Source of the DNA: a virus
Direction: 5' to 3' (one strand)
DNA length: 60,985 nucleotides
IMG/VR virus record: IMGVR_UViG_3300048924_000616
Span: 1 to 60,985 of that record
Shown: positions 4,401 through 60,985 of the stretch, one piece after another
Position numbering within the stretch: the first letter of the stretch is position 1
How the letters are laid out: each line of letters opens with the position of its first letter
Notes under the pieces: generated by a model
Seen by the model: the letters and a program-made list of their open reading frames with translations, nothing else
Told to the model about the DNA's origin: nothing
The model's database searches: none
Program-made: the position numbers and the translations under genes

Positions 4401-4406
4401 TCATTT

Positions 4407-4448
4407 CTCCTCAGTGGTGTGGTTGACCGCCAGTTGGTGGCTGGCGGT
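4407..4448 (-). promoter_or_regulatory. Leader hairpin plus repeated ribosome-binding motif
   Basis: Read leftward, an 8-bp perfect stem (ACCGCCAG/CTGGCGGT, 4426-4448) with the 7-nt loop CCACCAA is followed by ACCACACCAC and GAGGAGA, then the ATG at 4400. The same arrangement recurs before other early genes; see findings. It probably governs translation or mRNA stability of the metabolic cluster. Confidence 0.6.
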
Positions 4449-6117: not shown

Positions 6118-6122
6118 GCCCT

Positions 6123-6167
6123 CTCCTCAGTGTGGTGATGTTAAAAGGCCGATTGGTGGTCGGCCTT
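6123..6167 (-). promoter_or_regulatory. Leader hairpin plus repeated ribosome-binding motif
   Basis: Leftward: stem AAGGCCGA/TCGGCCTT (8 bp perfect, 6145-6167) with loop CCACCAA, then CATCACCACACTGAGGAGAG and the ATG at 6117. The loop is identical to that at 4426-4448, while the stem sequence is completely different yet still paired. Confidence 0.6.
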
Positions 6168-6173: not shown

Positions 6174-6338
6174 TTAGCGTGAATATGCCCAAAGCAGTCC
6201 GAGCGTCAGAAGTATTATAAAAGCCGGAGGCATGACGTAGAGCAACAAAACTGCTCGAAGACTTTCCAGTTCTTGAGCGCGCTGTATCTCCAGCATGGTC
6301 TGTATCGACAGGATGTTCACGGCGATGTGCTCGATCAA
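6174..6338 (-). CDS. Small membrane protein (54 aa, TTG start)
   Basis: The frame begins with TTG overlapping the protease stop (TTGA), with GAGG 5 nt upstream. The product has an amphipathic N-terminal helix rich in Q, E and L, and one strong membrane span near the C-terminus (about residues 32-51). Function is unknown. Coupling to the exported protease suggests a partner or anchor. A later GTG could be an alternative start. Confidence 0.5.
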   Translation of the reverse strand: MIEHIAVNILSIQTMLEIQRAQELESLRAVLLLYVMPPAFIILLTLGLLWAYSR

Positions 6339-6988
6339 TCCGACCTCGCCAGCAGTCCGCAAACAGCGCTCGAGGGAACGACGTAGCCGTAACCAACCAG
6401 CGAGCCAGAAAAGCCAATCTGCGCAGACATCACGCCAACGGTGATGCCAATGAGATCGCCCGATGCTGAAAAGACAGGCCCGCCTGAATGCCCCATCACA
6501 GTGGTGATGTCGGTGACATAAACGGACTTCCATGGACCGGCCTGCCGTGGCGCACCGGCGATCTTGCCGTATGCAGCAACAAACTCGACTGACAAAGGAT
6601 TGCCGTAGGCGGTGATACTCTCTCCGGCTTTCACATCTGTGCAGGATAGCCGAGCTACGCCTAAACCGTCCGACGACGTGCGCAGCAGTGCAATGTCTTG
6701 CGCAGTATTCACCCACAGTACATCGGCACTATGCAGTAGACCGTCCTTTGCCTTCACTTGCACAGTCTTTTCCGAGCCGACGACGTGCGCAGCAGTGACG
6801 ATAAACCCGTCACCAATATGAACGCCAGAACCGTGTCCTCGGGCATGAATGACTTTGACGGTTGCAGTTTCAGTTGCTGGAACGTTGAACGCTGCAACGC
6901 TCGGAGCGGCGAAGATTGCGGCTGCCGCCAAAGCCGTAATGAGGAATGCGACTGCTATGCGTCTGAACCTGTGAAGATAATACTTCAT
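6335..6988 (-). CDS. Exported trypsin-like serine protease
   Basis: A 217-residue chymotrypsin-fold protease. The N-terminus has a basic patch and a hydrophobic signal or anchor (about residues 13-33). The catalytic triad is visible: H in VTAAHVV (about 68), D in QDIALL (about 103), S in GHSGGPV (about 166). Such DegP/HhoA-like single domains act in the periplasm; no PDZ domain follows. A protease of this kind is uncommon in phages and may act in lysogenic conversion or on host envelope proteins. The upstream element at 7032-7052 probably controls it. Confidence 0.8.
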   Translation of the reverse strand: MKYYLHRFRRIAVAFLITALAAAAIFAAPSVAAFNVPATETATVKVIHARGHGSGVHIGDGFIVTAAHVVGSEKTVQVKAKDGLLHSADVLWVNTAQDIALLRTSSDGLGVARLSCTDVKAGESITAYGNPLSVEFVAAYGKIAGAPRQAGPWKSVYVTDITTVMGHSGGPVFSASGDLIGITVGVMSAQIGFSGSLVGYGYVVPSSAVCGLLARSD

Positions 6989-7031
6989 GATGGCCCCCTC
7001 TGGTGATGTGGTGATTGTGCCAGACGCTGGT

Positions 7032-35995: not shown

Positions 35996-36931
35996 CTATG
36001 CAGCGTATTTCTTTATCGCAGCCATCAGATTGTCATTTGCAGCAATCAATGCCCGCCTTCCTCCCTTCTTCTTGTCTGCATACTGCCTAGACTGGCCAAC
36101 CGCCTCTCCAACTTCTGCAAATGTCTTGGCGGTCTTAGCCGCTTCGATCACTGCCCTGTCTTTTTTGCTAAGGCTGTCTACCCAATGAAACCACTCCTTG
36201 CGATCTTCTCTTAGCGTTGCGATGTCGGACCATGCTTGTGAACCACTACTGCCGGTACAAACCTTCACCAAGCCAGGAAAAAGTTGAGCAAGGTTAGCAG
36301 GTGACGCGGGAAAACCATCCGGTATCAGTGTGACGTTCGGCATATTCTTGGTTCCGGCAATCGCATCTGCGAGCCACTGCCGTTCTTCTGCTTTCGTTTT
36401 TGGGCCGGTTCTGTCTTTGCGCTTTGTGCGCTTCACAGGTTTTGGATGTATCGCGCTGAACAATCCAGCGGGCCGAAAGTCTGTTTCCTTTCCAGAGAAG
36501 TAGTTTTTCGTGCTTGTGGCATCCTCTGGATTGTCATCGCCTCCACGCTGCACACGTTCCTTGTCGGTAGTTCCAAGCATGCCACCGGCAGGAACAACGA
36601 ACTGATGGACAACAACCTCACCGTCCACTGTAACCTTGTACCCCTGCTCGGTCTGAGTGCCGTCACTGAACCGGAGCGAACCCCATCGAATTGTCAGGCC
36701 TTGATCGTTTTTGATCTCTTCGAAGTTCTCGACCTGTCGCATAATTTCGCCGGTCGATGGCGAAATATCCCATAGCTTATCCATCTTCATCCCCTCGACA
36801 TCCTCGGGGTTGTTGTCGTTAGCGACAGTAGTCGACCAGTTCGTCTGCAATGGCTCTGGTATATGATCAGGCTCTGTCACAGCGCGACGGATGGCGGCCA
36901 ACTGCTCACCAAGAGATGCGTGTCTTGTCAT
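35996..36931 (-). CDS. Hypothetical protein with two ANDN peptides (311 aa)
   Basis: A 311-residue protein that I do not recognise. The N-terminal 40 residues contain VANDNN. A beta-rich domain (about 60-125) is followed by a disordered basic stretch (PVKRTKRKDRTG) and a helical C-terminal part including a helix-turn-helix-like TFAEVGEAVGQSRQYADK. It ends AANDNLMAAIKKYAA, very like an alphaproteobacterial tmRNA tag. The HTH and the place between tRNA and nuclease suggest DNA binding, perhaps regulation; unproven. The 212 bp before the tRNA hold only a short CACCTATACAGGTG palindrome. Confidence 0.6.
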   Translation of the reverse strand: MTRHASLGEQLAAIRRAVTEPDHIPEPLQTNWSTTVANDNNPEDVEGMKMDKLWDISPSTGEIMRQVENFEEIKNDQGLTIRWGSLRFSDGTQTEQGYKVTVDGEVVVHQFVVPAGGMLGTTDKERVQRGGDDNPEDATSTKNYFSGKETDFRPAGLFSAIHPKPVKRTKRKDRTGPKTKAEERQWLADAIAGTKNMPNVTLIPDGFPASPANLAQLFPGLVKVCTGSSGSQAWSDIATLREDRKEWFHWVDSLSKKDRAVIEAAKTAKTFAEVGEAVGQSRQYADKKKGGRRALIAANDNLMAAIKKYAA

Positions 36932-36962
36932 GCGTCAATCCCCTTAATCTTCATGTCGCCTC

Positions 36963-37442
36963 CTATCGTGGTGATGCTGGATTGTTGTCGTTATCGGCTA
37001 GCCATTGTCTGACGAGTGTCACAGCCTTTGACGCAGCCTCATGTGTTGAGGTGAAGCGCACGACTTCAACAGGATGGCCTAGTCTTGCGAGAGATGCATG
37101 ACGCACAACTTGAGCCGGAGACAACCGACCTTTGCCGACCTTGTTTTCAATCATCCGCAGTTTGCCGCCGGTGATGTATATCCGCAGATCCGCCTCGCCA
37201 GGTGTGAGACCTGTAGCAACTGCGTCGGCTTGTGCGCGTGGTCCGCGCTTGGCGCTGTTCATATCACCAGCCAACAAGAACTGGCGGCCGTATTCTGGAA
37301 GTGCCCGCAGCGCTCTTACTTGGGCGGCCTGTCCTTCGCTTTCCTTGATCGGTGCGTCAGCGACCGTAACCTTGCCGCTAGTGCTGGTGCGAATAACGAC
37401 ACGCTTTCCGTCAATGCGGGTGGTCTGCTGTGACTTGCGCAT
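36963..37442 (-). CDS. VRR-NUC-type PD-(D/E)XK nuclease
   Basis: A 159-residue protein. After a variable N-terminus come GPRAQADAVATGLTPGEADL, RMIENKVGKGRLS and AQVVRHASLARLGHPVEVVR, giving the D...E-x-K site and conserved Q of VRR-NUC nucleases. The family cuts branched or single-stranded DNA. The C-terminus carries NDNN. Strong SD (AAGGAGGG). Confidence 0.75.
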   Translation of the reverse strand: MRKSQQTTRIDGKRVVIRTSTSGKVTVADAPIKESEGQAAQVRALRALPEYGRQFLLAGDMNSAKRGPRAQADAVATGLTPGEADLRIYITGGKLRMIENKVGKGRLSPAQVVRHASLARLGHPVEVVRFTSTHEAASKAVTLVRQWLADNDNNPASPR

Positions 37443-46279: not shown

Positions 46280-47115
46280 GCTGCCACCCCAAATAAGTCC
46301 GCCTGGTAAGGCTTGTTGTCGTTCGCAGCGACAGGCCGCGATTGCACAACTGGCACGACCGCCCGCACCTCTTCCGTGTGTTCAAACTCGATGCAAACGA
46401 TCTCGCACATCGGCGAAACACCCTTCCAATCGTTGATGTAGAAAGCGGTATCGATCCCGCAGCCAGCTTCGAAGTAAAGCCCGGTGAGTTCTTGGAATTT
46501 CACCGCCTTGCCGTCCTTCTGCCGCTCGTGGCAAGGCCTGCCGCTGTAATTAAAACCAGCGGACATTTGCGGCACGATGAACGCGCCCGAGGCAGCCAGA
46601 TGCGCGGCTATATCGATGACGTGAAATTCGAACTCTGCGCCGGTATAGCGAGGAGCTCCGCCATCGCGCTTGACCTTGCCAAAAGGAGGGTTGCTGATCG
46701 CGACATCAAACCGGCCTAGGTCCATGTCCAGTACACCCATCACGTCGGCGAGGATCCAATCTGCCTCCGGTAGGATTTTCTGACCAACCGCTAGGTAGTC
46801 GGGATTCCGCTCCACGCAGGTGATCCGGGCCTTCTGGTGACTACGGTGCCAGCAGGCGTAAGACAGCATGCCGATTCCCGCGCACAGATCAATGATCCGC
46901 CCGCCATATCCGCCCTGCCCGACAGCATCGATGGTGAAATCAAACGCCATATCGTATGGCGTGAAGAACGCGCCCGCAGCGCCGTTCACATGGTTCGCGC
47001 CCTCGTTCCAATTTTTAAGAACGAAGTCCTTTTCGTCTTCGGTCAGCACCTGTTTGGTCAGCAAGTCGCAGGCCTGCGAATGGGCTTTTGCTTGCGCTTT
47101 CGTGAGCTTGGCCAT
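46276..47115 (-). CDS. SAM-dependent DNA methyltransferase (NPPF type)
   Basis: A 279-residue class I methyltransferase. SAM-binding motif IIDLCAGIGMLSYA (about residue 71) and catalytic ISNPPFG (about 140) indicate an amino-group (N6-adenine or N4-cytosine) DNA MTase. The C-terminus AANDNKPYQADLFGVAA looks like a tmRNA degradation tag. Start overlaps the MT-A70 stop by one base. Target site unknown. Confidence 0.78.
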   Translation of the reverse strand: MAKLTKAQAKAHSQACDLLTKQVLTEDEKDFVLKNWNEGANHVNGAAGAFFTPYDMAFDFTIDAVGQGGYGGRIIDLCAGIGMLSYACWHRSHQKARITCVERNPDYLAVGQKILPEADWILADVMGVLDMDLGRFDVAISNPPFGKVKRDGGAPRYTGAEFEFHVIDIAAHLAASGAFIVPQMSAGFNYSGRPCHERQKDGKAVKFQELTGLYFEAGCGIDTAFYINDWKGVSPMCEIVCIEFEHTEEVRAVVPVVQSRPVAANDNKPYQADLFGVAA

Positions 47116-47666
47116 TATGCCGCCTCAAGTAGTGGCGCAGCAAACTTTCCAACCTGGTTGCCCCACGCAGACCAACCCGGCCAGGCTTGGCGTGCGAAAA
47201 GCTCAAGGTACGGCCCAGCAACCAGCGACTCTATGCGCCCGTAGGTCTCGTCTGGTTTTCGAGAATGCTCTCGGCGCGGCGCGCGTATCACCGAACGCAC
47301 ACCTTTGCTCAGCCGACGAGGTTTTCCCCGTTTGAACAGGTGACACACCTCGACTTCCTGCCGGGTCCAGTACCCCATACCCATGCGACCCTTATCCCAG
47401 ATGAAGGCCAACGACACCGGTTTGAAACCCCACGCCGCTGCGACATCGAATGCTTCACGCTGCAAGTGGCTAACCGTCCATAGGAAGAGTAGGCAGTCCT
47501 TCGCTGCGACGTCGGAAACAGGTAGTGCCGCAATATCGGCAAGCGACATCACGGCATATGGCTGCGCACCGCGAGCGGGTGCTACGTTGTCGTTGGCATA
47601 GGTTCTGAATGACCACGGCGGGTCGGCAAGGATCGCGCCGAAGCGCCCCTCTGGAAGCGGGTTCAT
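47115..47666 (-). CDS. MT-A70-family adenine methyltransferase
   Basis: A 183-residue MT-A70 protein with the catalytic LADPPWSF near residue 15 and the FLWTVSHL and KRGKPRRLSKGVRSV regions typical of the phage branch. It methylates adenine N6 in DNA. A YANDNV peptide follows the DPPW motif. Third MTase in a row, with its own leader copy (CACCACAG...GAGGAGA). Confidence 0.82.
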   Translation of the reverse strand: MNPLPEGRFGAILADPPWSFRTYANDNVAPARGAQPYAVMSLADIAALPVSDVAAKDCLLFLWTVSHLQREAFDVAAAWGFKPVSLAFIWDKGRMGMGYWTRQEVEVCHLFKRGKPRRLSKGVRSVIRAPRREHSRKPDETYGRIESLVAGPYLELFARQAWPGWSAWGNQVGKFAAPLLEAA

Positions 47667-47705
47667 AATGTCTCCTCAGACTGTGGTGATCGCGCCGAAG
47701 CGGTA

Positions 47706-47726
47706 CGCCGCGTTGGTGGCGCGGCG
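47706..47726 (-). promoter_or_regulatory. Leader hairpin with CCACCAA loop
   Basis: Stem CGCCGCG/CGCGGCG (7 bp perfect) with the loop reading CCACCAA leftward, 29 nt before GAGGAG (47672-47677) of the MT-A70 gene. Same loop as at 4426 and 6145. Confidence 0.6.
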
Positions 47727-48020: not shown

Positions 48021-48554
48021 TCATGCGACGCGGACCGACAGTTGCTCACCAGCTTCGCCCATCTGCGCGCCGCGAACCTTCTTGCCAGCCTGCAACGCTT
48101 CCTTGATCGCGGTCTTATCCGGTGATGTCGATACACGCACGTAGGCCTTCGGCAGGATAGCTTCGTCAGTTATCTCGACAGATGCGGCTCTCTTACCGAT
48201 CGAGATCGTCGCCTCAGCAAGCGGCACGCGCGGCACGCCTGAGACTTTCAGCAACTTAAACATCAACGAGCGCATCGCGTCCTTGCGGCGTTCGGCTCGG
48301 GACTTGCGCGCCTGCAAATCGGATATGCGACCAGCAACAGCCTTCGCCATCGTGTCGGCATCGCGTTCTGTGTTGACCAACTTAGTCAGGACGGCATGGA
48401 AGTTCGTCTCGCCTTCCAGCATGTCGGCGCGCAGGTCTTCATCCTCTTCCAACTCCGGATATGCTGCGAGCATGTCGGCGAAAAGTGCTTCGAGGTTGGC
48501 GACGTCGGCGGCTAGAAACTGCGCTTGTCTGTTGTCATTGGCTGGTTTGGTCAT
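48021..48554 (-). CDS. Gp157-like phage protein
   Basis: A 177-residue protein of the siphovirus Gp157 type: long helical N-terminal 110 residues, then GVPRVPLAEATISIGKRA and the VSTSPDKTAIKEALQAGKKV end. The family occurs in early operons next to recombination genes, and its biochemical role is unclear. Starts MTKPANDN. Leader with CACCACCAC and GAGGAG, and the AATGTAACC element upstream at 48600. Confidence 0.8.
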   Translation of the reverse strand: MTKPANDNRQAQFLAADVANLEALFADMLAAYPELEEDEDLRADMLEGETNFHAVLTKLVNTERDADTMAKAVAGRISDLQARKSRAERRKDAMRSLMFKLLKVSGVPRVPLAEATISIGKRAASVEITDEAILPKAYVRVSTSPDKTAIKEALQAGKKVRGAQMGEAGEQLSVRVA

Positions 48555-48599
48555 TTGTGCTCCTCAGTGGTGGTGGTGCAAACTTATGCTGACAACGGC

Positions 48600-50383: not shown

Positions 50384-50674
50384 GTGATTTCTGGAATTGA
50401 TTTGTCGTGGTTGTCAGATTTACTGGCAGTCGTAGGTCTGACGCTCACCGCTATCGGGGCTGGCTGGACTGCGAGATCCGTGATCTTAACGGAGGAAGAG
50501 GCCGTGAAAATTGGCGTTGCTCGTTTTGCTGCGGCAACACATGAGGAAAATCTAAACCTCCCGCATGTTCAGTCGCTTCTCGCTTCGTCAAAGGGAGCGA
50601 AACTGGGACTAATGGTCGTTGTGGCGGGTACTGTTCTTCAGATCATAGTTCCGGCTATTCGGCTCTTCGGCTAA
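50384..50674 (+). CDS. Two-span membrane protein against the operon (96 aa)
   Basis: A 96-residue GTG-started protein encoded in the gap between two leftward genes, with its stop overlapping the opposing sigma-like gene's end by 4 nt. Two membrane spans (about residues 12-34 and 74-93) flank an acidic helical loop. The SD TGGAG is 12 nt upstream. Balanced hydrophobic spans and normal composition favour a real gene. Function unknown. Confidence 0.5.
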   Translation: MISGIDLSWLSDLLAVVGLTLTAIGAGWTARSVILTEEEAVKIGVARFAAATHEENLNLPHVQSLLASSKGAKLGLMVVVAGTVLQIIVPAIRLFG

Positions 50675-51186
50675 GCCGCCTCCATCAGATCAGTCAGGCG
50701 CAATCGCTCTCGCTCAATCAGCTGGCGCACTCGTTCTTTACCGATCCCATAATCTTGGCCAATCTCGTCAAGCGTGTCACCCATTGCGTGCCGGAGTACC
50801 ATCTCGCCCTCCCGCCCCCGCAGATTGCCAATCACGGCCGACAGTTCAGCGTTTTTGTGCTGTGTCGCGTCGACACCGAACGGCAGTTCCTCGAACGTAT
50901 CGAGGCTTCGGACATCGGCCGATCGGGATTGGGTGGAATTGTAAATAATGAATTCCTGAGCAGCGTTTCGCACGTTGAATGAAGCCCACGTCCAAAACAT
51001 CTCAAGGCGGCAGTTGGTGTGTCGGCGCAGCATTAGAAGCATTGCTTGCTGAAACAACTCCTCCGTTGCGTCATCGTGCTTGGCAATACGGCGCGCCATC
51101 TTTCGTATTGCTGGCTCGTAAGCGAGCAGCTTGCGGTCAAACTCAGGATCACGCGGAACGTTATCGTTGGCGGCCTTGCGTCTCAT
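50671..51186 (-). CDS. Phage sigma-70-like factor
   Basis: A 171-residue protein with a region-2-like helix bundle (LAYEPAIRKMARRIAKHDDATE, then MFWTWASFNVRNAAQEFI) and a region-4 helix-turn-helix at the end (DTLDEIGQDYGIGKERVRQLIERE). Such small sigma factors can direct host RNA polymerase to phage promoters. The leader CACCACATTGAGGAGACC fixes the start at 51186, excluding a longer reading. The N-terminus carries AANDN. Confidence 0.75.
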   Translation of the reverse strand: MRRKAANDNVPRDPEFDRKLLAYEPAIRKMARRIAKHDDATEELFQQAMLLMLRRHTNCRLEMFWTWASFNVRNAAQEFIIYNSTQSRSADVRSLDTFEELPFGVDATQHKNAELSAVIGNLRGREGEMVLRHAMGDTLDEIGQDYGIGKERVRQLIERERLRLTDLMEAA

Positions 51187-51209
51187 AGTGGTCTCCTCAA
51201 TGTGGTGTT

Positions 51210-52139
51210 TCAGGCGGTGGTGGCGCCATCGATCCATGTCCTGCCGTCGCGAAGGACGTATGTGATTGTTTCGGCATCCTCGTCGCAATCTGTCTGCTCG
51301 CCTGGCACCATCGCCGGGATAGTCAGGTGTGTCGGGCAGCCTTCCTTTTGCTCGTCGAAAGAGATCGGCTTCGCCCATCGGGCGCAGGACCAGTGACCAT
51401 CGCCGCCCATTTCCGGAGTGCTGTGAATGCACGACCGGCAAGTAACGCGAGGCCAAGCGCTCTCTTTGCAAATAGGCTTATGCTTGCAGAACATGCATTC
51501 AAACCAGTCAGCCGCTTCATTGATGCGAGATGGCGGCTCCGGTGAATTGATGATGCGTTCTAATCGCGCCAGTAGGCGCAGACAGAACTCAGCATCGTAT
51601 TCAAGGCGTTCAGCATAGAGCGTATCGTCGTCTTTGCAGCTAACCAGATACAGGCAACGCGACAGTCCAAAGGCATGCATTCCGAGTTGGCACTGGCCGT
51701 AATGCAGCGGTTTGGCCTTCTCGCATCCGTCTTTAACAATCAGCTTCATGCCTTTGGCATTGCTTGATTTAAATTCAAGAAGGTGCTCAGTCTTCGGCGC
51801 CTCGACAACGCCCATCGCCTTTCCGTCGCACTTGCCGCGCACATGTCCTTGCACCAGCCTGATCTTGTCTTGCTGCCCGTAGACGTCTACGCCAATGCGC
51901 TCAAGGTCGGCGACTAACCGATCTTCTTCAATGTTGCCGGTTTCAAACAATCGCAGTTGACGGCCGTGGTGTTTTTCAAGCGGCGTTGCCCAACGAAAGG
52001 CATACCAGAGCGATCGATCACATGGATTGTTGGCCTCACCAACGGAAATGCCGAGGCTGTCCCATGACGATGCTGCTGCTTCGTATGCGGCATATATGGC
52101 TCTTACAGTGCTGGCCTCAGCGCGTGGTAAGGGAGCCAT
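51210..52139 (-). CDS. PD-(D/E)XK exonuclease (RecB/Cas4-like) with Cys cluster
   Basis: A 309-residue nuclease-fold protein: GKCDGKAMGVVEA and HLLEFKSSNAKG give the D...E-x-K site (about residues 110-130), with YGQCQLGMHAFGL as the QxxxY-type helix. About 100 residues later a Cys-rich segment (CMFCKHKPIC, CRSC, CARW) may hold Zn or Fe-S. Probable role: DNA end processing in phage recombination with the RecA-like ATPase. Start at ATG 52139 overlaps the previous stop (TAATG). Confidence 0.78.
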   Translation of the reverse strand: MAPLPRAEASTVRAIYAAYEAAASSWDSLGISVGEANNPCDRSLWYAFRWATPLEKHHGRQLRLFETGNIEEDRLVADLERIGVDVYGQQDKIRLVQGHVRGKCDGKAMGVVEAPKTEHLLEFKSSNAKGMKLIVKDGCEKAKPLHYGQCQLGMHAFGLSRCLYLVSCKDDDTLYAERLEYDAEFCLRLLARLERIINSPEPPSRINEAADWFECMFCKHKPICKESAWPRVTCRSCIHSTPEMGGDGHWSCARWAKPISFDEQKEGCPTHLTIPAMVPGEQTDCDEDAETITYVLRDGRTWIDGATTA

Positions 52140-52483: not shown

Positions 52484-52767
52484 AAATCCATCTCCTTCGT
52501 AAACAGACATCTGGCTGGTTTGGCTGGGTCTTGAATGAACGCGAGACACCAAGGCATGCCATCACGGCGTACCCACTCATCTGGCTGGCCACCCCACAAA
52601 GCCTGAGCGCGAATGATGCAAACGCCGGGAGCGTCGTTGCCGAATTCGTCTTCCCAGTTTTCGCCCTCATCGCTGCGGCAGTGGCGGCACCAGCTTCGTT
52701 CAAAGTCAGCGCCTTCGGTGGAGTTAGCGGGCCGCCATGGCCCGCCGTCGTGGTTATCAGCGGTCAT
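52480..52767 (-). CDS. Trp/Cys-rich hypothetical protein (95 aa)
   Basis: A 95-residue acidic protein with seven tryptophans, a CRHC pair near residue 27 and further single cysteines. Start overlaps the beta-clamp stop. Similar small proteins follow clamp genes in related phages; no function can be assigned. Confidence 0.65.
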   Translation of the reverse strand: MTADNHDGGPWRPANSTEGADFERSWCRHCRSDEGENWEDEFGNDAPGVCIIRAQALWGGQPDEWVRRDGMPWCLAFIQDPAKPARCLFTKEMDL

Positions 52768-53816
52768 CAGACGCGCATCGGCATGCAGACGAGCGTAAGA
52801 CCCTCGAAGCCGTCGGACGTGATGAGCCCGGGCATTCCACCATCCTGCAGCGCCAGCTTGACAGGGCCACCAGGCAGAACATTCAGCACGTCGCGGACGT
52901 AAGCGGCATTGAAGCCAATATCGATTGGCTCGCCACTGTACTCCGCCTCAACCTCGTCATTCGCCGAAGCCTCGCCAGCTGCAACAGCAAGCGCAATGCT
53001 GCCGGGTGCAATGCTGAACTTCACGGCGCGGCCACGTTCAGACGACACCGTCGACACACGGTCCGACGCTTTCATCAGCGCATCACGGTCTACCGTAACG
53101 ACGTGCTCGTTGCTCTTCGGAATGACGCGCTCGTAGTCCGGGAATGTGCCGTCGATAAGTTTCGAGGTGATGCGCACATCATCCGACACGATGCGGATCT
53201 TCTGCTGGCTCACCGCAACTTGCACCTTGCCCTTTGGAAGCAGACCGACGGTCTTGCGCGGCACGATGACACCATGAAACTCTGGCAGCTCCGGACCGCT
53301 ATGACGCGCGAGGCGATGCCCGTCAGTCGCGACAGCGACAGATTGACCGCCTTTGAAGAACACGCCGTTCAAGTAATAACGCGTCTCTTCTGTCGAGATA
53401 GCAAACGCCACCGGTGCGAACAGCGCGGCGATATCGAGCTCAAACTCGGCGTCGAAGCTGTCCTCTCCAAGAGTTGGAAAATCATTGGCTGGCAAGGTCG
53501 ACAAGGTGAAGCGAGAACGACCGGACTTAACGGACAGCTTATCGCCATCGAGCGTCATGGTAATATCGCCAGTCGCTTTGCGGGCGATGTCGTTGAGCAG
53601 CTTTGCGCTCACACAGATATTGCCTGGTGTCGTTACTTCGGCCGGCACGCCAGCTGTAGCTATGATATCAAGGTCTGTAGCCGTCACAGCAAGGCCGTCA
53701 GCGGCAGCAGCGAGTTGAACACTGGATAGGATAGGAATTGTCGATCTGCTCTCGACGACCTTTGTCGTGGACGCAAGAACGCGCGTCAGGTCATCCTTGT
53801 GAATAACAAGGTGCAT
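52767..53816 (-). CDS. dnaN: DNA polymerase III beta sliding clamp
   Basis: A 349-residue beta clamp recognisable over its whole length: N-terminal IPILSSVQLAA, DGLAVTATDLD, domain 2 VFFKGGQSVAVATDGHRLA, and the terminal MPMRV that closes bacterial clamps (usually MPMRL). Slightly shorter than host clamps (about 365-375). It would tether host polymerase III, or redirect it to phage DNA. A phage-encoded full clamp without a phage polymerase is notable. The leader hairpin at 53845-53867 precedes it. Confidence 0.9.
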   Translation of the reverse strand: MHLVIHKDDLTRVLASTTKVVESRSTIPILSSVQLAAAADGLAVTATDLDIIATAGVPAEVTTPGNICVSAKLLNDIARKATGDITMTLDGDKLSVKSGRSRFTLSTLPANDFPTLGEDSFDAEFELDIAALFAPVAFAISTEETRYYLNGVFFKGGQSVAVATDGHRLARHSGPELPEFHGVIVPRKTVGLLPKGKVQVAVSQQKIRIVSDDVRITSKLIDGTFPDYERVIPKSNEHVVTVDRDALMKASDRVSTVSSERGRAVKFSIAPGSIALAVAAGEASANDEVEAEYSGEPIDIGFNAAYVRDVLNVLPGGPVKLALQDGGMPGLITSDGFEGLTLVCMPMRV

Positions 53817-53844
53817 GTGGTTCTCCTCAATTGTGGTGAAGTGA

Positions 53845-53867
53845 CGGGCCGCTGGTGAGGCAGCCCG
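53845..53867 (-). promoter_or_regulatory. Leader hairpin with CACCA-type loop
   Basis: Stem CGGGCCGC/GCAGCCCG (one mismatch), leftward loop CTCACCA, followed by CACCACAATTGAGGAGAACC and the clamp ATG. Confidence 0.5.
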
Positions 53868-53879
53868 CGTTCGTGTGGG

Positions 53880-54458
53880 TTACTTGTTACCCCAAGGCCG
53901 ACGTGTCGTCCCTGCAGCCGCTGCGGCAGGCTTGTTGTCGTTGCTGGCAGCTGTGCGGCGGTTGTCCTTTGCGGCGGCTGGCGCAGCATCAACCTTCGGC
54001 TCAGGCAGGTTGCCCTCGTCCGGATAGTAATATTTTTTCAGTTCGTTGCGGGCAGCATACTTCGGCGAGCCGTCTGCATTCTTTTCCTTGCTGTCCTTAC
54101 CCATGCCGATACGGGCAGAGAACGAAATGAAGTGCAGTTCGTCTGAGTCCTCAGGAGCTTCATTAAGCCCAAGGGCGCGGAGCAGGCACGCAAACTGCCG
54201 CTGGCCAATTTCCTGAACCTGTGAACTTGGGTGCTGCAGATTATAGTTGGAGAAGATCTTGCGCCCCTTCAGTTCCTCAGGCGCTAACACATCGATCGCC
54301 AAGCTCAGATTGATGGCATGATCGCGTGTTCCTTCGTTTTTCTCCTTGATTTCAGATGCACTGATTTCAAGTTGATAATCGCCGTTCGGCAGATTGGTGA
54401 AATCTCGCTGCTGCGTATTCTCTTCTGTGGCTTCAACTCTTACGCCAATCTTGGCCAT
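53880..54458 (-). CDS. SSB-like protein (DUF669 type)
   Basis: A 192-residue protein of the phage DUF669 type (LPNGDYQLEISASEIKEK, IFSNYNLQHPSS, ACLLRALGLNEAP), located as usual beside the RecA-like ATPase. Residues 1-135 form an OB-like domain. The C-terminal 50 residues are Ala/Lys-rich, disordered and carry ASNDNK; no acidic SSB tip is present. It is thought to bind single-stranded DNA for recombination. Confidence 0.75.
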   Translation of the reverse strand: MAKIGVRVEATEENTQQRDFTNLPNGDYQLEISASEIKEKNEGTRDHAINLSLAIDVLAPEELKGRKIFSNYNLQHPSSQVQEIGQRQFACLLRALGLNEAPEDSDELHFISFSARIGMGKDSKEKNADGSPKYAARNELKKYYYPDEGNLPEPKVDAAPAAAKDNRRTAASNDNKPAAAAAGTTRRPWGNK

Positions 54459-54480
54459 AGGTAGTCTCCTTGTGGTGTGG

Positions 54481-54702: not shown

Positions 54703-54860
54703 CAGAAGAAACCTCCAGCATAGAGAAGGCCAGCGCCGATGCCCGTACCGATCAAGGTTTGCCAAACACTGTATGGACCACGGCCCTCACCATGCTTTAC
54801 GGCACTAATCGCGACGCCAGCTGCTGCTAGAGCAATCCAGGTTATCTGCGGCCAACCCAT
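54702..54860 (-). CDS. Small two-span membrane protein (52 aa)
   Basis: A 52-residue protein with hydrophobic segments at about residues 6-20 and 35-52, joined by a basic/glycine loop. TGATG overlaps at both ends. Unknown. Confidence 0.6.
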   Translation of the reverse strand: MGWPQITWIALAAAGVAISAVKHGEGRGPYSVWQTLIGTGIGAGLLYAGGFF

Positions 54861-55633
54861 CACGCAGCAACTCCAGTCGGAGGTGGAAAGTGCTTTGCCA
54901 GTTCGGCGTAGCCCTGCCCTTTGCGGTACGGCACAGCGTCCGGCATCGAATAGCGGTTCTTCGCATTGAATCCGGCACCTTCGACGAGATGCACCTGTCG
55001 CTCCTTGCCGCCCTCAGCGTGAGCAACCTTAGTCTGGCGAGCGACTTCCTTCTCCTTGATGGAGATGCGGTAGTTCATGAACGCGACGATGTCGGACTTC
55101 TCGCGGACCAGTGCATTGGCACGCTTGTGCAGTTTCGGCTGGTAGCGGCTGTACGGATCCGTCACAGGGCTGTCGAAGCGTACGATTTCAGGGTGAGCCA
55201 GCATCACGACGCAGATGCCACGCTGAGCAAGGGCAGAAACCGCTGCCATCAGCTCGTTCCATTCGGCGTCGGCCTCTACGTAACCCTTTCCGAATCCTGC
55301 TTCCTCGATAGACGAAACGCCGATGCGTCGGCATGTTGCTGCCCATACCAACGGCTCAAGACCGTCGAGGCTGTCGAGGATAACCGTTTTGCGGTCATGC
55401 TCCTCGGTGAGCAATTCGCCGAACACGTCCAGCAGTTCGTCAAAGCTTTCGATGGTGCCAGGTGTTACGAGTTCAACATCAGACGGCGTGCGCTCACCTT
55501 CGGTCGGAAGATAAATTGCGTCTGGAAACTCAGCGGCAAGGCTGGTTTTGCCAATGCCGTCGACGCCGTAAAGCAGAATAACGGGCGGGTCTGCTCTCTT
55601 CGTCGATTTGAGCGACGATAGTGAAATAGCCAT
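54860..55633 (-). CDS. RecA-like ATPase (Sak4-type recombinase)
   Basis: A 257-residue P-loop ATPase: Walker A LYGVDGIGKTSLAAEFP (about residue 22), Walker B VILDSLDGLEPL (about 83), and a VVMLAHPEIVRF strand. Short RecA-core proteins of this kind (Sak4 group) act with SSB-like proteins in phage homologous recombination. Leader CACCACACTGAGGAGG fixes the start. Ends in PTGVAA. Confidence 0.8.
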   Translation of the reverse strand: MAISLSSLKSTKRADPPVILLYGVDGIGKTSLAAEFPDAIYLPTEGERTPSDVELVTPGTIESFDELLDVFGELLTEEHDRKTVILDSLDGLEPLVWAATCRRIGVSSIEEAGFGKGYVEADAEWNELMAAVSALAQRGICVVMLAHPEIVRFDSPVTDPYSRYQPKLHKRANALVREKSDIVAFMNYRISIKEKEVARQTKVAHAEGGKERQVHLVEGAGFNAKNRYSMPDAVPYRKGQGYAELAKHFPPPTGVAA

Positions 55634-55642
55634 AAGGCCTCC

Positions 55643-55741
55643 TCAGTGTGGTGCGGTGAAGATGATGACAACAATGTAGGCACCGGCTGCCAGAACGATC
55701 AGCCACTGCCAATTTCTGATCAGCGTGCGTAAAGGTAGCAA
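55643..55741 (-). CDS. Possible one-span micro-protein (32 aa, TTG start)
   Basis: A short frame overlapping the end of the next gene: about 32 residues with one hydrophobic span and a TTG start. It ends 9 nt before the ATPase gene. Evidence is limited to the uninterrupted membrane-like sequence in the gap. Confidence 0.3.
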   Translation of the reverse strand: MLPLRTLIRNWQWLIVLAAGAYIVVIIFTAPH

Positions 55742-55950
55742 ACCAACCACCAGAACAATCCGAGCACTACGATCGCCACGAGAGCGAACGGAAACAGCGC
55801 GATGATGCCGACGGCGATTGCTGCGGTGATGCCCGCCGCAAGACCTCGCTTTAAACCGCGTCGCACGTACTTGCGCGGTGTTGGCGTAACCGGGACATAA
55901 TCCAATGGTGCACTGGTGACCTCTGAGTACCAAGGTGATTTTTCAGTCAT
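55720..55950 (-). CDS. Small membrane protein (76 aa)
   Basis: A 76-residue protein with a Pro-rich N-terminal 30 residues, a basic stretch, and one long or two short membrane spans (about residues 38-73). Start overlaps the previous stop (ATGA). Unknown. Confidence 0.6.
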   Translation of the reverse strand: MTEKSPWYSEVTSAPLDYVPVTPTPRKYVRRGLKRGLAAGITAAIAVGIIALFPFALVAIVVLGLFWWLVCYLYAR

Positions 55951-56090
55951 GGCAGCAAACCCATCAAATACAGCACGCCGAGCGCAGGCAGGATTGCCAG
56001 CCAAGCCGCAAAGAAAATGAACGCAGCGAAGACCTGGCACTTTTCGATGAAACTCAGCCAAAAATCTGGCCAGCTGATTTCTGGCATCAT
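55947..56090 (-). CDS. Small one-span membrane protein (47 aa)
   Basis: A 47-residue protein with a short amphipathic start and a hydrophobic span at about residues 19-43. Overlaps both neighbours (TGATG before, ATGA after), one of a run of coupled small genes. Confidence 0.55.
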   Translation of the reverse strand: MMPEISWPDFWLSFIEKCQVFAAFIFFAAWLAILPALGVLYLMGLLP

Positions 56091-56281
56091 CACTCCGCCC
56101 TCGCCTTACCGGCCCGATGATAGCTCACAGGCGCTTTACTGTAGTATGTGCCGCCGACCTTCTCAGCTGTGCGACGTGCCTCTGCCTTCTGTGCCGCAGT
56201 GCGGAAAGGCTTGCGATTGAGCATGTTGATCTTGCCGGTGCGCGTAAGTCCGGTCTGATGCGCAAGGTGCGCCTGTCTCAT
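56090..56281 (-). CDS. Small basic protein (63 aa)
   Basis: A 63-residue, strongly basic protein with an Ala/Arg/Lys helix in the centre, possibly nucleic-acid binding. The leader TTCACCACAAAGAGGAGATA fixes its start. Unknown. Confidence 0.6.
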   Translation of the reverse strand: MRQAHLAHQTGLTRTGKINMLNRKPFRTAAQKAEARRTAEKVGGTYYSKAPVSYHRAGKARAE

Positions 56282-56287
56282 GGGTAT

Positions 56288-56329
56288 CTCCTCTTTGTGG
56301 TGAAGTGCGGCTGGATGGTGGCCAGCCGC
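56288..56329 (-). promoter_or_regulatory. Leader hairpin plus repeated ribosome-binding motif
   Basis: Stem GCGGCTGG/CCAGCCGC (8 bp perfect, 56307-56329), leftward loop CCACCAT, then TTCACCACAAAGAGGAGA and the ATG at 56281. Confidence 0.6.
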
Positions 56330-56338: not shown

Positions 56339-56653
56339 TTAGGCTGCCTGCCTACGCTGCGATGCTACCAAACGGGCACGTGCTGTGCTGTGCATGAATT
56401 CGGGATCACGTGCCTCGCTCACACGAGCGTTCGCTGCTTCACGAAGCGCCCTCTTGCGGTCGCCACGTGTTTTGCCATCAGAAAACTTGCGGAGCTCGTT
56501 TCGCGGCTTGCGCCAGCCATTGCCGCCTGCAAGCTTCTCAATGAGCGTCAGCCGACGAATGTTGTGCTCGATGCTTGTAGAAGGCATTCCGAGCTTGGTG
56601 TCGTTCTCGTGCTCACGATTGGCCAGCGCGGTGAAGATGTTTTCTTTAGACAT
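56339..56653 (-). CDS. Basic helical protein (104 aa)
   Basis: A 104-residue basic protein, largely helical, with many Arg/Lys/Ala residues and an ending RRQAA. Composition suggests nucleic-acid binding; no family recognised. Confidence 0.6.
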   Translation of the reverse strand: MSKENIFTALANREHENDTKLGMPSTSIEHNIRRLTLIEKLAGGNGWRKPRNELRKFSDGKTRGDRKRALREAANARVSEARDPEFMHSTARARLVASQRRQAA

Positions 56654-56657
56654 GGTT

Positions 56658-56690
56658 CTCCTCTCGCCGTGCGCTGGTGAGACGCACGGC
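56658..56690 (-). promoter_or_regulatory. Leader with hairpin inserted into the motif
   Basis: Leftward CACACCACAAG, then stem GCCGTGCG/CGCACGGC (8 bp perfect, 56666-56690) with loop TCTCACCAG, then GAGAGGAGAACC and the ATG. Here the hairpin lies between the CACCACA and GAGGAGA parts rather than before both. Confidence 0.55.
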
Positions 56691-56716
56691 CTTGCTTGTG
56701 GTGTGGTTGGTGGATG

Positions 56717-57649
56717 TTAGGCGGCTTTCTCGACGAAGGCGTCGACCGCCCGCTTGGCGGACAGAAGATCAAGGCTCGCGAGATCGCGCAATTCCTTGAT
56801 GGCGTCGATCTTCAGACCAAGAGCCGCGAGGTTCTGCCACTTTTGGTCATAGACCGGCGCGGCTTCTTCATGAGTATTGGTCAGCGTGAATACGCCAAAT
56901 TTCTTGCCCTTGTGCTTACCGGCCAGGCGCTTCGCTTCGGTTTCAGCTGCGCCGGTGGAAGTGTGGACATGCGGCGTTGAGGATGGCTTGGGCTGGCCAT
57001 TTTCGATGAGGGCGACGATGGCGGTGGTGGTGGTTGGTGTGGCTGGAGTGACTAGATTGAAATCATTGTCAGCCCAAAAAACAGTTCCGATCGAACCATC
57101 ATCCCAATCAACAAGGAACCTGCCATCGCTTCTCACAAATTTTACAGTGGCCTTTCCGCATCCCAATGTGCACTCAGCTCGATCACCGACCTTGAACTTT
57201 GGCTGCGCATTGTCGTTGCTTGCCTCTGCAACAGCTTCGTTGTTCCATTCGGCAACGAGGTCCGCATCATGCTTCACACCTATGACGGTGCCAAACGTTC
57301 CGTTCGAACGCCAAGCCTTGCCGATACTGGACGAGAACGGATGATCTACCGTCCATCCATACTCGCGGTCATGAAAGTGATCGACACGCATCGGCCCGAC
57401 CTTGCGGCCATCGCGCGTCTTGTAGAACTTGCCTGCTTCGATCTTCAAGGAGACCAATTCGAAATTCTCCGTGAGCCAAGGCAGGTCTGTGTGATGTTTT
57501 GCATTGCCGACTTCCGGCTGTTCATTGTCGGTAAGAACAAAACTTTTGCCGGTTGCCTTCGCGATGCGATAAAGCCCGTCTTTGTTGAAGAAGCTGCTGA
57601 TGTCGCGCTTCGCTCTAATCACGTCACCCTTTTCAAACTTACCCATCAC
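56717..57649 (-). CDS. Multidomain protein with L7/L12-like C-terminal domain (310 aa)
   Basis: A 310-residue protein with modular build. There are two or three small beta domains in residues 1-190 (KFEKGDVIRAKRDIS, GKFYKTRDGRKVGPM, KFKVGDRAECTLG), an ASNDN peptide between them, and a Thr/Pro-rich linker. The last 35 residues (IDAIKELRDLASLDLLSAKRAVDAF) resemble the C-terminal domain of ribosomal protein L7/L12, which in small proteins often acts as a binding module. Role unknown. Confidence 0.65.
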   Translation of the reverse strand: MMGKFEKGDVIRAKRDISSFFNKDGLYRIAKATGKSFVLTDNEQPEVGNAKHHTDLPWLTENFELVSLKIEAGKFYKTRDGRKVGPMRVDHFHDREYGWTVDHPFSSSIGKAWRSNGTFGTVIGVKHDADLVAEWNNEAVAEASNDNAQPKFKVGDRAECTLGCGKATVKFVRSDGRFLVDWDDGSIGTVFWADNDFNLVTPATPTTTTAIVALIENGQPKPSSTPHVHTSTGAAETEAKRLAGKHKGKKFGVFTLTNTHEEAAPVYDQKWQNLAALGLKIDAIKELRDLASLDLLSAKRAVDAFVEKAA

Positions 57650-57927
57650 GCCGCTCCTTCCGTGGTTGTCTCGGCCCTCATGACGCGCCGCTGTGTGAAA
57701 TCGACTTTGACGACATTCGTGTCGTCGTCTTCCTTGGCAGGCGGTCCAGCTTCATCATCGTGCTCGATCTCGAAGCCATGCCACCAGATAGTTGATGCTC
57801 CATCAGCAAGACGAACCAGATATTCACTGCCCCAGTTGCGATCTCCGATCACAACGCCGGTCAGGTGCGGGTTCTGCTTGTTGCGAACAACGTCGCCGAA
57901 ATTGAAAAATTCACACTCACAGGTCAT
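57646..57927 (-). CDS. Hypothetical protein (93 aa)
   Basis: A 93-residue protein with a beta-rich first 60 residues (FFNFGDVVRNKQNPHLTGVV, EYLVRLADG) like small SH3-type folds, then an acidic and disordered tail ending EGAA. Overlaps both neighbours by 4 nt. Unknown. Confidence 0.65.
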   Translation of the reverse strand: MTCECEFFNFGDVVRNKQNPHLTGVVIGDRNWGSEYLVRLADGASTIWWHGFEIEHDDEAGPPAKEDDDTNVVKVDFTQRRVMRAETTTEGAA

Positions 57928-58244
57928 GCCGCCACCTGCTCTCTTGCCGTATGCACATCTGCAGGAAAGTTGTCGTTCGCAGCCTCAAGGCAACGAAGGC
58001 GGGGCAATGTGACTGGTACAAGGCCAGACACTGTGGAGCATCCGCCGTTGTATGGCATCATGCGAGTGATGCGGTCAGGATGTTCCTGTGTGGCAGTGCG
58101 TGGTGGTTTTCGACCGTTAAACGCGTCGATCACGGTCTTTTTTCCGCAGCCATAAAGGTCTGCAAGGGTCTGATAGCTGGCGCCATTGCGCTTGAGTTCT
58201 CTTAGCACAGCAAGTGCCTCCTCATCGATTACTCTCCGTCTCAA
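57924..58244 (-). CDS. Helix-turn-helix protein, first gene of the early operon (TTG start)
   Basis: A 106-residue protein with an HTH near the N-terminus (LKRNGASYQTLADLYGCGKKTVIDAFNG). The TTG at 58244 is chosen because CACCACGAGGAGACC stands directly before it, as at other early genes; a longer TTG frame would translate through that leader. As promoter-proximal gene it is a candidate regulator (Cro- or antiterminator-like), which is inference. C-terminus AANDNFPADVHTAREQVAA closely resembles the Caulobacter-type tmRNA tag. Confidence 0.65.
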   Translation of the reverse strand: MRRRVIDEEALAVLRELKRNGASYQTLADLYGCGKKTVIDAFNGRKPPRTATQEHPDRITRMMPYNGGCSTVSGLVPVTLPRLRCLEAANDNFPADVHTAREQVAA

Positions 58245-58250
58245 GTTGGT

Positions 58251-58315
58251 CTCCTCGTGGTGCCCCGGTGGTGACGGGGTGATTATGGGTTGGCGGTTAC
58301 ATTGGGATGGCGCAA
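58251..58315 (-). promoter_or_regulatory. Early leader: AATGTAACC element, hairpin and ribosome-binding motif
   Basis: Leftward order: AATGTAACC element (58295-58303, preceded by TTGCGC), hairpin CCCCG/CGGGG (58263-58279) with loop TCACCAC, then CACCACGAGGAGACC and TTG 58244. All three leader elements of this phage are combined here. Confidence 0.5.
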
Positions 58316-58431
58316 CTGCAAATGTTGACAATGGCAGGATCGCAGCGTAGTTCTGATGGCAGACTGCTCTTCTAGAGTGGTCTCCTCAGGAATTGAGGGA
58401 GGTTGTGGTGACCGTTGATCTCAATTCTGAA

Positions 58432-59760: not shown

Positions 59761-59789
59761 TTGACGCAATAAGTTTGTGCCCCTATAAC
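59761..59789 (+). promoter_or_regulatory. Rightward promoter
   Basis: TTGACG (59761-59766), 17-nt spacer containing AAGTTTGTG, TATAAC (59784-59789). Strong sigma70-type promoter controlled by the adjacent palindrome. Predicted start near 59796, at the base of the leader hairpin. Confidence 0.75.
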
Positions 59790-59797
59790 TCCTCTTG

Positions 59798-59831
59798 TGG
59801 CATCACCACTGCCATTTCACCACAAGAGGAG
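59798..59831 (+). promoter_or_regulatory. 5' leader hairpin plus repeated ribosome-binding motif
   Basis: TGGCA-TCACCAC-TGCCA (loop identical to that at 58263) followed by TTTCACCACAAGAGGAGACC and the ATG at 59840. In addition CCTCTTGTGG (59791-59800) can pair with CCACAAGAGG (59820-59829), which would hide the SD. Confidence 0.55.
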
Positions 59832-59839
59832 ACCACCCT

Positions 59840-60199
59840 ATGTACAGACCAAGACCGGAAGACTTCGACGTCATCTCCGCAATGCAATCGGCTCAGTCGG
59901 ATGAACGCATGCTGCGCCCCGATCACAAAGCCAAGAAACATGGCAAGCCAAAAACTAAATACGAATATATGCGTCGCTTTCCAAAGAAGCAGCGCGAAGG
60001 CGAGCAAGTCGGCGGTGGCCACTTTGTATTCCGCCGCGGCGACAGCACTGGCCGCATCCGGCCCTGCATGTGGCCTTTCGAACACCCCTCCTATGATGCT
60101 GCATTCACAGAAGCCGAACGCTTGTTCAAAGAACATGGCGGCACCTACGACATTGTTTCTGTCTGCGGCCAGGTCAGCCCCATCCCGGGTCAAGACTAA
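59840..60199 (+). CDS. Hypothetical protein (119 aa), first rightward gene
   Basis: A 119-residue basic protein with a disordered Lys/His-rich segment (DHKAKKHGKPKTKYEYMRRF) and an aromatic C-terminal part containing two cysteines. It is the first gene of the repressor-controlled rightward operon and might be an early regulator; no family recognised. Confidence 0.65.
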   Translation: MYRPRPEDFDVISAMQSAQSDERMLRPDHKAKKHGKPKTKYEYMRRFPKKQREGEQVGGGHFVFRRGDSTGRIRPCMWPFEHPSYDAAFTEAERLFKEHGGTYDIVSVCGQVSPIPGQD

Positions 60200-60339: not shown

Positions 60340-60370
60340 ACCAACCACCACACCACTGAGGAGACTACGC

Positions 60371-60985
60371 ATGGCCAGAAGAGCCACGACGACGGCTGCC
60401 GACTTGGCGGCTGACACGACATCGCTGACGACCTACAAGGGTTTCGGCAAAGATTGGCAATGCCGCGGCTATCAATATGCTGTCGGCGAAACATACGAGC
60501 ACACCGGCAGCGTTGTTCGCTGCGCTGGTGGCGGCTTCCATTCGTGCGAGCATCCACTCGATACCTGGAACTATTACGAGCCGAACACGAGCCGTTATGC
60601 GGAAGTGACAGTCGGCGGTCTCATTGATCGCGATAAGGAAGGCGATAGCAAGATCGCATCCGGCAAGATCACGATCAATGTTGAATTGTCTCTGGGTGAA
60701 TTGACTCGACGCGCTGTTAAGTGGGTCGCTGAAATGGCCAAGAAGCAAGGTAATGGTCAACACACAACGGGCAATTACGGCCATGCCTCTGCGGCGGGTT
60801 ATCGCGGCCATGCCTCTGCGGCGGGTGAAGGCGGCCATGCCTCTGCGGCGGGCAATTACGGCCATGCCTCTGCGGCGGGCAATTACGGCCATGCCTCTGC
60901 GGCGGGTGAAGGCGGCCATGCCTCTGCGGCGGGCAATTACGGCCATGCCTCTGCGGCGGGTTATCGCGGCCATGCCTCTGCGGCG
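60371..60985 (+). CDS. Repeat protein, cut by window end
   Basis: At least 205 residues; the gene runs off the window. Residues 1-105 form a globular domain (SLTTYKGFGKDWQCRGYQY, FHSCEHPLDTWNYYEP, ADVTVGG-like strand) that I associate with a family of phage/prophage proteins bearing such repeats. From residue about 135 a 9-residue repeat GHASAAGxx follows without break. Leader CACACCACTGAGGAGAC before the ATG. Probably a beta-solenoid; function unknown. Confidence 0.7.
   Translation, partial: MARRATTTAADLAADTTSLTTYKGFGKDWQCRGYQYAVGETYEHTGSVVRCAGGGFHSCEHPLDTWNYYEPNTSRYAEVTVGGLIDRDKEGDSKIASGKITINVELSLGELTRRAVKWVAEMAKKQGNGQHTTGNYGHASAAGYRGHASAAGEGGHASAAGNYGHASAAGNYGHASAAGEGGHASAAGNYGHASAAGYRGHASAA
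60773..60985 (+). repeat. 27-bp tandem repeats encoding GHASAAG-x-x
   Basis: Eight copies to the window end. The 18-nt core GGCCATGCCTCTGCGGCG is unchanged in each; the 9 variable nt encode G plus NY, YR or EG. Identity at synonymous sites indicates recent expansion. Confidence 0.9.

Follow-up and report, generated by a model that had tools for sequence, protein, structure and literature searches.

The 119-aa gene that begins at 59840 is preceded by a leader of the form CACCACA–GAGGAGA–ATG, which recurs at other gene starts of the window, i.e. of the whole 60,985-base virus record IMGVR_UViG_3300048924_000616 analysed here. The question raised by this locus is whether such a leader is simply an extended Shine–Dalgarno (SD) sequence or a signal in its own right, and whether it would be read in DNA or in RNA. 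The window is most closely related to Rhizobium phage 16-3 and its kin and to prophage-like stretches in Agrobacterium and Rhizobium genomes; the sliding-clamp protein of the window has counterparts of 91% identity in A. pusense and 89% in A. rosae. A search in related phages, as proposed in the initial annotation of this DNA, revealed the leader in 16-3 and four relatives (RHph_X2_25, RHph_TM3_3_14B, AP-16-3 and NV1.1.1) at 11–15 copies per genome, and 13 copies are present in the window. We found no earlier description of it in the open-access papers searched, and one may exist elsewhere; the main text of the AP-16-3 paper (PMC10460002) does not use the terms Shine-Dalgarno, ribosome binding, motif, hairpin or promoter. 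A scan of the window with Rfam at gathering score matched a tRNA only.

The initial annotation had listed about 15 starts sharing the leader, with coordinates that are correct to within a base or two. All 15 are real SDs in front of open frames, and 12 of them have CACCAC at most 10 nt upstream of AGGAG. At 56658 CACCAC lies about 35 nt upstream, with a 9-bp hairpin between it and the SD, and the sites at 45865 and 44054 have to be withdrawn as copies of the leader, no CACCAC being present in the 75 nt examined. The two TTG starts that the leader had been thought to fix part ways accordingly: the one at 58244 is upheld by an element, an SD and a homologue that aligns from residue 1, and the one at 44046 has no CACCAC. 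That CACCACA precedes GAGGAG beyond chance is borne out, since the window has 13 instances of CACCAC at most 10 nt from AGGAG, as against a mean of 0.27 and a maximum of 3 in 100 third-order Markov sequences, whereas GAGGAG alone shows no such enrichment (36 in the window, 23.1 expected, maximum 39 in the Markov sequences). The copies of the window, including two that had not been listed before, are given in Table 1.

Table 1. Leader copies and candidate reader genes of the window (hairpins are predicted)
Feature	Position	Strand	Parts	Gene and remarks
Element	4398–4448	-	hairpin 4426–4448 (8 bp, loop CCACCAA), CACCAC 4414–4419, SD 4407–4411, ATG 4400	65-aa gene 4203–4400
Element	6115–6167	-	hairpin 6145–6167 (8 bp, loop CCACCAA), CACCAC 6132–6137, SD 6123–6127, ATG 6117	DNA repair exonuclease gene 4861–6117
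Weak element	6986–7013	-	CACCAC 7008–7013, GAGGGGG in place of AGGAG, ATG 6988	protease-like gene 6335–6988; not in the initial annotation
Hairpin-less element	36952–36973	-	CACCAC 36968–36973, SD 36960–36964, ATG 36954	8-codon ORF overlapping start of gene 35996–36931; not in the initial annotation
Element	47664–47726	-	hairpin 47706–47726 (7 bp, loop CCACCAA), CACCAC 47683–47688, SD 47672–47676, ATG 47666	DNA methyltransferase gene 47115–47666
Linear element	48552–48578	-	CACCACCACCAC 48567–48578, SD 48560–48564, ATG 48554	Gam-like gene 48021–48554
Element	51184–51227	-	4-bp hairpin 51213–51227 (loop CCACCAC), CACCAC 51202–51207, SD 51193–51197, ATG 51186	sigma-70-like gene 50671–51186
Element	53814–53868	-	hairpin 53844–53868 (9 bp, loop CTCACCA), CACCAC 53833–53838, SD 53823–53827, ATG 53816	sliding-clamp gene 52767–53816; best covariation case
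Linear element	54456–54477	-	CACCAC 54472–54477, SD 54466–54470, ATG 54458	SSB-like gene 53880–54458
Linear element	55631–55653	-	CACCAC 55648–55653, SD 55639–55643, ATG 55633	Sak4-like recombinase gene 54860–55633
Element	56279–56329	-	hairpin 56307–56329 (8 bp, loop CCACCAT), CACCAC 56297–56302, SD 56288–56292, ATG 56281	63-aa gene
Rearranged element	56651–56703	-	CACCAC 56698–56703 upstream of hairpin 56666–56690 (9 bp, loop CTCACCA), SD 56658–56662, ATG 56653	104-aa basic gene
Element	58242–58279	-	hairpin 58263–58279 (5 bp, loop TCACCAC), CACCAC 58257–58262, SD 58251–58255, TTG 58244	HTH gene (p072 homologue) 57924–58244
Element	59797–59842	+	hairpin 59797–59815 (6 bp, loop TCACCAC), CACCAC 59818–59823, SD 59827–59831, ATG 59840	119-aa gene 59840–60199; singled out in the initial annotation
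Linear element	60346–60373	+	CACCACACCAC 60346–60356, SD 60359–60363, ATG 60371	DUF7666/collagen-like gene
p073-family gene	57649–57927	-		predicted SH3/KOW-like barrel; candidate trans factor
p074-family gene	56717–57646	-		predicted SH3-like modules and C-terminal stretch like bL12 C-terminal domain helices; candidate trans factor

Public annotation served as an independent check: of the 69 copies of CACCAC..AGGAG in five GenBank phages, 66 are located at annotated starts, which provides a practical rule for start annotation in 16-3-like phages. The remaining three lie before an unannotated 99-codon frame, 39 nt inside p104 of 16-3, and before a 27-codon frame. The annotated start of p104 (record L263, 57225 and 57264) is probably wrong, as the element and its SD indicate the ATG at 57264 instead.

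The full element consists, in this order, of an optional hairpin with an ACCA loop, an ACC-phased A/C tract, GAGGAGAC, about 4 nt, and ATG. Its linear part was characterized on a first set of sites, defined by an ORF of at least 30 codons and its 60 nt upstream, which numbered 133 and was reduced to 104 by dropping those at least 60% identical. The distance from AGGAG to the start is 6 nt in 62 of the 104 SD-anchored sites, and that from CACCAC to AGGAG is mostly 2–6 nt. AGGAG is followed by A in 93% and then by C in 86% of the sites; this AC, which was not part of the search pattern, is found at 56 of 66 marked starts as against 16 of 85 other AGGAG starts (p = 2e-16). Conservation beyond the SD, as had been claimed, is borne out. 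The tract itself is not arbitrary. In A/C runs before early AGGAG starts, taken without selection for the motif, ACC, CCA and CAC are favored (CAC 224 vs 124 expected) and CCC and AAA are avoided (21 vs 127 and 21 vs 48 expected, respectively), so that the triplet order is non-random, the tract is ACC-phased, and mere A/C richness is ruled out as the whole story.

Whereas the linear part had been recognized correctly, describing the leader as a linear sequence is incomplete, because an RNA hairpin module with an ACCA loop had been missed. Many copies have a stem-loop just upstream with ACCA in a loop of 6–8 nt, most often CCACCAA. In the 45 nt that precede CACCAC, the top-ranking loop tetramer is ACCA, which falls in a predicted apical loop at 34 of the 104 sites, as compared to 1.5 ± 1.4 in dinucleotide shuffles; the same was seen in 14 of 73 early leaders that lack an exact match to the motif and in 0 of 34 late leaders. 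A second set was drawn from the 80 of 205 loci with a site that had at least two (125 single-site loci were dropped), 197 of its 345 sites being non-redundant against both sets, and in these 197 the count was 54 vs 2.9 ± 1.6. Five-bp stems around NNACCAN, the best of 14 loop geometries tried in the first set, numbered 17 there, against 1.0 (maximum 4) when arms were re-dealt among sites, and 27 vs 1.4 (maximum 6) in the second set. Stems with an ACCA loop are predicted at 79 of 301 sites and the complementary stems with a TGGT loop at 3 of 301; the near absence of the latter implies that the hairpin belongs to the mRNA-sense strand.

Compensatory change is clearest in front of the sliding-clamp gene, where 25 of 27 non-redundant leaders have a predicted ACC-loop stem of at least 6 bp as against 0.45 in shuffles. 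Among 15 distinct clamp hairpins, pairs 1–7 are standard in 15 of 15, each position showing at least two pair types, but only leaders with at least 4 bp had been admitted as rows (29 of 44), so that the fair measure is the 25 of 27, set against shuffles searched in the same way. Pairs were counted by script on ungapped rows, the stems being too dissimilar for alignment with MAFFT; indeed GCGGGCTGC/GCGGCCCGT, TGCCTGCCG/CGGCAGGCA and GCCGCATGG/CCATGCGGC have little in common except their pairing. Such stems are rare in ssb (4/27), sak4 (1/17) and sigma (2/22) leaders, which mostly have the linear tract alone and often overlap the end of the preceding gene. The leaders used were those with CAC..AGGAG, the window included: 34 of 44 for the clamp (27 non-redundant), 31 of 34 for sigma, 37 of 39 for ssb, 31 of 40 for sak4, and 6 of 7 for the methyltransferase. 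Overall, about a third of copies have a predicted ACCA-loop hairpin and roughly two thirds do not; in the window such hairpins have 5–9 bp at the starts 4400, 6117, 47666, 53816, 56281, 56653, 58244 and 59840, and 4 bp at 51186. Since stems differ between copies while pairing is kept, the signal would be read in RNA, and the view of the leader as an RNA start module with a conserved loop and covarying predicted stems is well supported.

The genes carrying the leader form a restricted class. If late genes are taken as the plus-strand genes of the terminase-to-tail-fibre interval, set from annotation or, in AP-16-3 and NV1.1.1 with their mostly unnamed products, by gene order, the leader is found at 66 of 382 non-late starts and at 0 of 111 late starts in the five annotated relatives (Fisher p = 1.6e-8), in agreement with the earlier statement that it is limited to early and accessory genes and missing from the late operon. 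An upstream gap of at least 40 nt is present in 37 late genes of these relatives, and the leader is nonetheless absent. The structural genes of the window have no copy either, the sole one between 10.9 and 37 kb being that at 36960, upstream of the terminase. In marked genes the upstream gap has a median of 75.5 nt, as opposed to -4 nt in other early genes, and it is 10 nt or less in only 8 of 66; the tie to upstream gaps singles out genes that need initiation of their own. The leader thus marks non-late genes, mostly those unable to rely on coupling to the preceding gene, as computed from these positions. An exact match is missing in 73 of the 122 early genes with a gap of at least 40 nt, and the leader is not fixed per gene: it is absent, for instance, at the exonuclease gene in 16-3, NV1.1.1 and others (exonuclease leaders were listed and left uncounted). 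Both leftward and rightward early operons bear it. Sixteen of the 66 copies lie within 110 nt downstream of an AATTTGT operator-promoter, several of them with a hairpin near the predicted 5′ end as judged by eye, and 50 are without such a promoter. By the same computation the module serves behind a promoter and within operons alike, and it is the leader, not the promoter, that is the common part.

Genome scans rule out a signal of the host. In the genus to which the A. pusense genome belongs, 7–11 matches were found in each of five genomes out of 39, all inside one prophage-sized stretch of 49–55 kb per genome, and 0–2 in the other 34; the pattern read backward gave 0 matches in the 39. In the bacterial class, 3 of 289 genomes have any match, one of them being the known carrier. 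A strict pattern was found in at least 120 stretches of viral contigs as against 40 for a permuted control; it replaced a looser pattern, which had given mostly single matches by chance. The leader is therefore phage-specific. Zero copies were found in the more distant AmM-1 and in the 50 of 53 kb scanned of RR1-A. Crude motif discovery in these two and in related loci other than L002, L003, L007 and L016 (two too short) gave no comparable motif, and the same test was silent for L003, which is a carrier.

Several known systems invite comparison. CsrA/RsmE sites have a short GGA motif in hairpin loops that is repeated in single strands beside the SD, and they are the nearest mechanical analogy for a motif shared by loop and single strand, although CsrA reads GGA and the 16-3-type leader presents ACC/ACCA. 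The initial annotation had likened the leader to the start-associated sequences (SAS) of cluster K mycobacteriophages, and the likeness holds for the layout but not for the consensus sequence. The SAS, described in 2011 with a function not known in that account, number 11–19 copies per genome with an AGGAG core 3–7 nt from the start, precede only non-structural genes behind gaps of more than 50 bp, are absent from the host, are conserved beyond the needs of 16S pairing, and in about half of the cases have an inverted repeat upstream (PMC3203893). The 16-3-type leader resembles them more closely than the initial annotation could know: copy number, AGGAG core, proximity to the start, gene class, gaps, absence from the host, an inverted repeat upstream of a subset and conservation beyond the SD are all common to both. 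The sequences are unrelated, with an ACC tract and GAGGAGAC in the one and GGGATAGGAGCCC in the other; this 13-bp cluster K consensus has no match at up to 2 mismatches, and its 11 matches with 3 mismatches compare to 11.4 expected. The inverted repeats differ as well. The ESAS is an imperfect 17-bp inverted repeat with conserved arms and a variable spacer, for which its authors judged RNA hairpins unlikely (PMC3203893) and in which a later paper placed putative promoters (PMC11373665; see also PMC12699233 on SAS/ESAS). The 16-3-type leader is the opposite, its loop ACC being conserved and its arms varying with compensation. That a second phage group, including the classical phage 16-3, has the SAS layout with an unrelated sequence suggests that marking early genes in common for post-transcriptional control is a recurring strategy.

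Control of early mRNAs at the start site is also exerted in T4, by RegA and RegB (PMC3014915). RegA is similar in that marks at translation starts place early genes across the phage under shared post-transcriptional control, and different in that its sites, as that source describes them, are unstructured, rich in A+U, and either overlap the AUG or immediately precede it. RegB likewise involves an SD of early genes in which the bases 3′ of GGAG are conserved, but its consensus there is GGAGRAYARAA, given with no upstream tract or hairpin (PMC3014915). The PeSL cassettes of T4-like phages (cited in PMC4503421) are likewise intergenic stem-loops in early gene clusters; they consist of a promoter plus a stem-loop, whereas 16-3-type copies are mostly without an identified promoter and are tied to an SD.

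We consider it reasonably probable that the leader is a translation-initiation module, acting as RNA, of early genes in 16-3-like temperate Rhizobiaceae phages, and that it is bound by a trans-acting factor. The ACC/ACCA units, exposed in the loop or in unpaired RNA next to the SD, would be bound by a sequence-specific factor, most likely phage-encoded; the bound factor would set the efficiency of 30S initiation on early genes, by activating or repressing it, and early translation could thereby be separated from late translation. With the mark being an RNA hairpin with a fixed loop, an RNA bait could capture such a reader, and changes to loop or stem would be clean tests. A less probable explanation is an open ribosome-binding site that needs no dedicated reader: because A does not pair with C, an A/C-rich leader would keep the SD single-stranded, with the hairpin as insulator or standby boundary. 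The predicted unpairedness of the SD is 0.51 at marked starts as compared to 0.43 at other early starts (p = 0.03) and 0.28 at late ones (p = 4e-4), and similar A/C-rich leaders with GAGGAGAC also occur in a high-GC virus contig that is apparently unrelated. However, the gain over other early genes is small, the order within A/C runs is strongly non-random, as shown by the CCC and AAA counts above, and ACCA is singled out in the hairpin loops. It could also be that a regulatory RNA with GGU/UGGU repeats pairs with the ACC tract and the loop, which seems unlikely to us. Loops of the ACCA kind can in principle act as kissing targets, and the PL-type leader of the window holds CTCCTCTTGTGG, the perfect complement of its own CCACAAGAGGAG. 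Yet the positions of TGTGGTG/GTGGTGT outside the element antisense in six genomes show no evident common locus, and the CTCCTC stretch comes directly after the -10 and may be largely untranscribed.

The combination of hairpin and linear motif, carried by leftward and rightward early operons, would also suit a signal for RNA processing, stability or antitermination that sits at starts by coincidence, its hairpin resembling boxB and the tract behind it boxA. We think this quite unlikely, since the spacing is locked to SD and start and since 11–15 copies per genome at individual genes are unlike one site per operon. Recombination is invoked for the T4-like PeSL cassettes, and the leader might similarly be a conserved intergenic sequence that aids the shuffling of early genes, standing as it does before different genes in different phages and being gained or lost by orthologues; but the stems are too unlike between copies to serve as homology, and neither the AC after the SD nor the conserved loop would be explained. 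As the sole explanation this is very unlikely, and the leader may have such a role in addition to that in initiation. Scarcely credible, finally, is a signal at the DNA level, e.g. a promoter or a binding site for phage sigma factors, even though carriers encode sigma-70-like proteins. Stems covary while the loop is kept, and in the mRNA sense only; the motif, at 2–6 nt from the SD, lies inside the transcript; and a separate promoter lies upstream of 16 copies. A promoter or DNA operator was rejected on stem covariation, strand asymmetry and the promoter-less copies.

If the module is bound by a phage factor, then the p073- and p074-family proteins are, by position and domain content, the best candidate readers. 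Their genes directly follow the marked p072 gene and are present in 6 of 6 carriers and 0 of 2 non-carriers compared, and p073 is present in exactly the five element-rich genomes of the 39. The model of p073 has a mean pLDDT of 72 with a confident barrel, for which the best Foldseek match is a NusG KOW domain (E = 6e-3, none below 1e-3), other SH3-like barrels scoring similarly on a second look. The p074 model has a pTM of 0.35 and matches Spt5 and other SH3-like entries at E values of 2e-3 or worse; for its C-terminus, bL12 chains make up 12 of 15 among the PDB matches listed (E 0.001 to 0.007). This evidence is suggestive only, since block inheritance predicts the co-occurrence of p073 and element, which proves little, and since SH3 barrels are common. 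One could imagine, as a doubtful extension, a phage-made initiation factor of NusG/Spt5-like KOW barrels and a bL12-like tail that would read the leader, link marked early mRNAs to the ribosome and switch early translation as a block. The p076-like protein (55723–56061) was dropped as an RNA-binding candidate on account of its membrane-type sequence. Searches of eight phage records for RegA (PF01818) and RegB (PF10715) matched 0 of 8 each, with positive controls that were silent too; CsrA was absent from the same number of phage records, the only ones covered, in a search with a working positive control, and a search for the DUF3310 family, run without a positive control, gave no match; the RegA, RegB and DUF3310 results are accordingly no proof of absence. 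Within the p074 family, varying SH3/KOW-like modules precede a constant bL12-like C-terminus.

Some further observations concern the leaders and their surroundings. In the PL-type leader of the window, CTCCTCTTGTGG (59789–59800, plus strand) and CCACAAGAGGAG (59820–59831, plus strand) are perfect reverse complements over 12 nt, and most homologous leaders keep a 9-nt version of the complement directly after the -10 box; the SD of this leader could be sequestered if the complementary stretch is transcribed. A CTCCTCTTG stretch is present in the window-type PL leader. The window is without AAATTTGTA and has a different operator sequence at its PL-type promoter, and a repeated TTGACAAATTTGTA promoter-operator stands before several early genes of 16-3-like phages (near 33870, 48955 and 57762 in the 16-3 record L263, and in other carriers). 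The high-GC contig (L256), which came from the control scan and apparently belongs to an unrelated phage, contains several small genes in a row whose leaders, ACACCACACCACGAGGAGACACACCATG among them, are rich in A and C. An element-like CACCAC...GAGGAGACCACTCTAG at 58382–58410 (minus strand), which lies upstream of the HTH gene and lacks a start codon, is possibly the remnant of a lost gene. The DUF7666/collagen-like gene (60371–60985, plus strand) contains 27-bp tandem repeats and runs off the record, the end of which therefore lies inside a gene.
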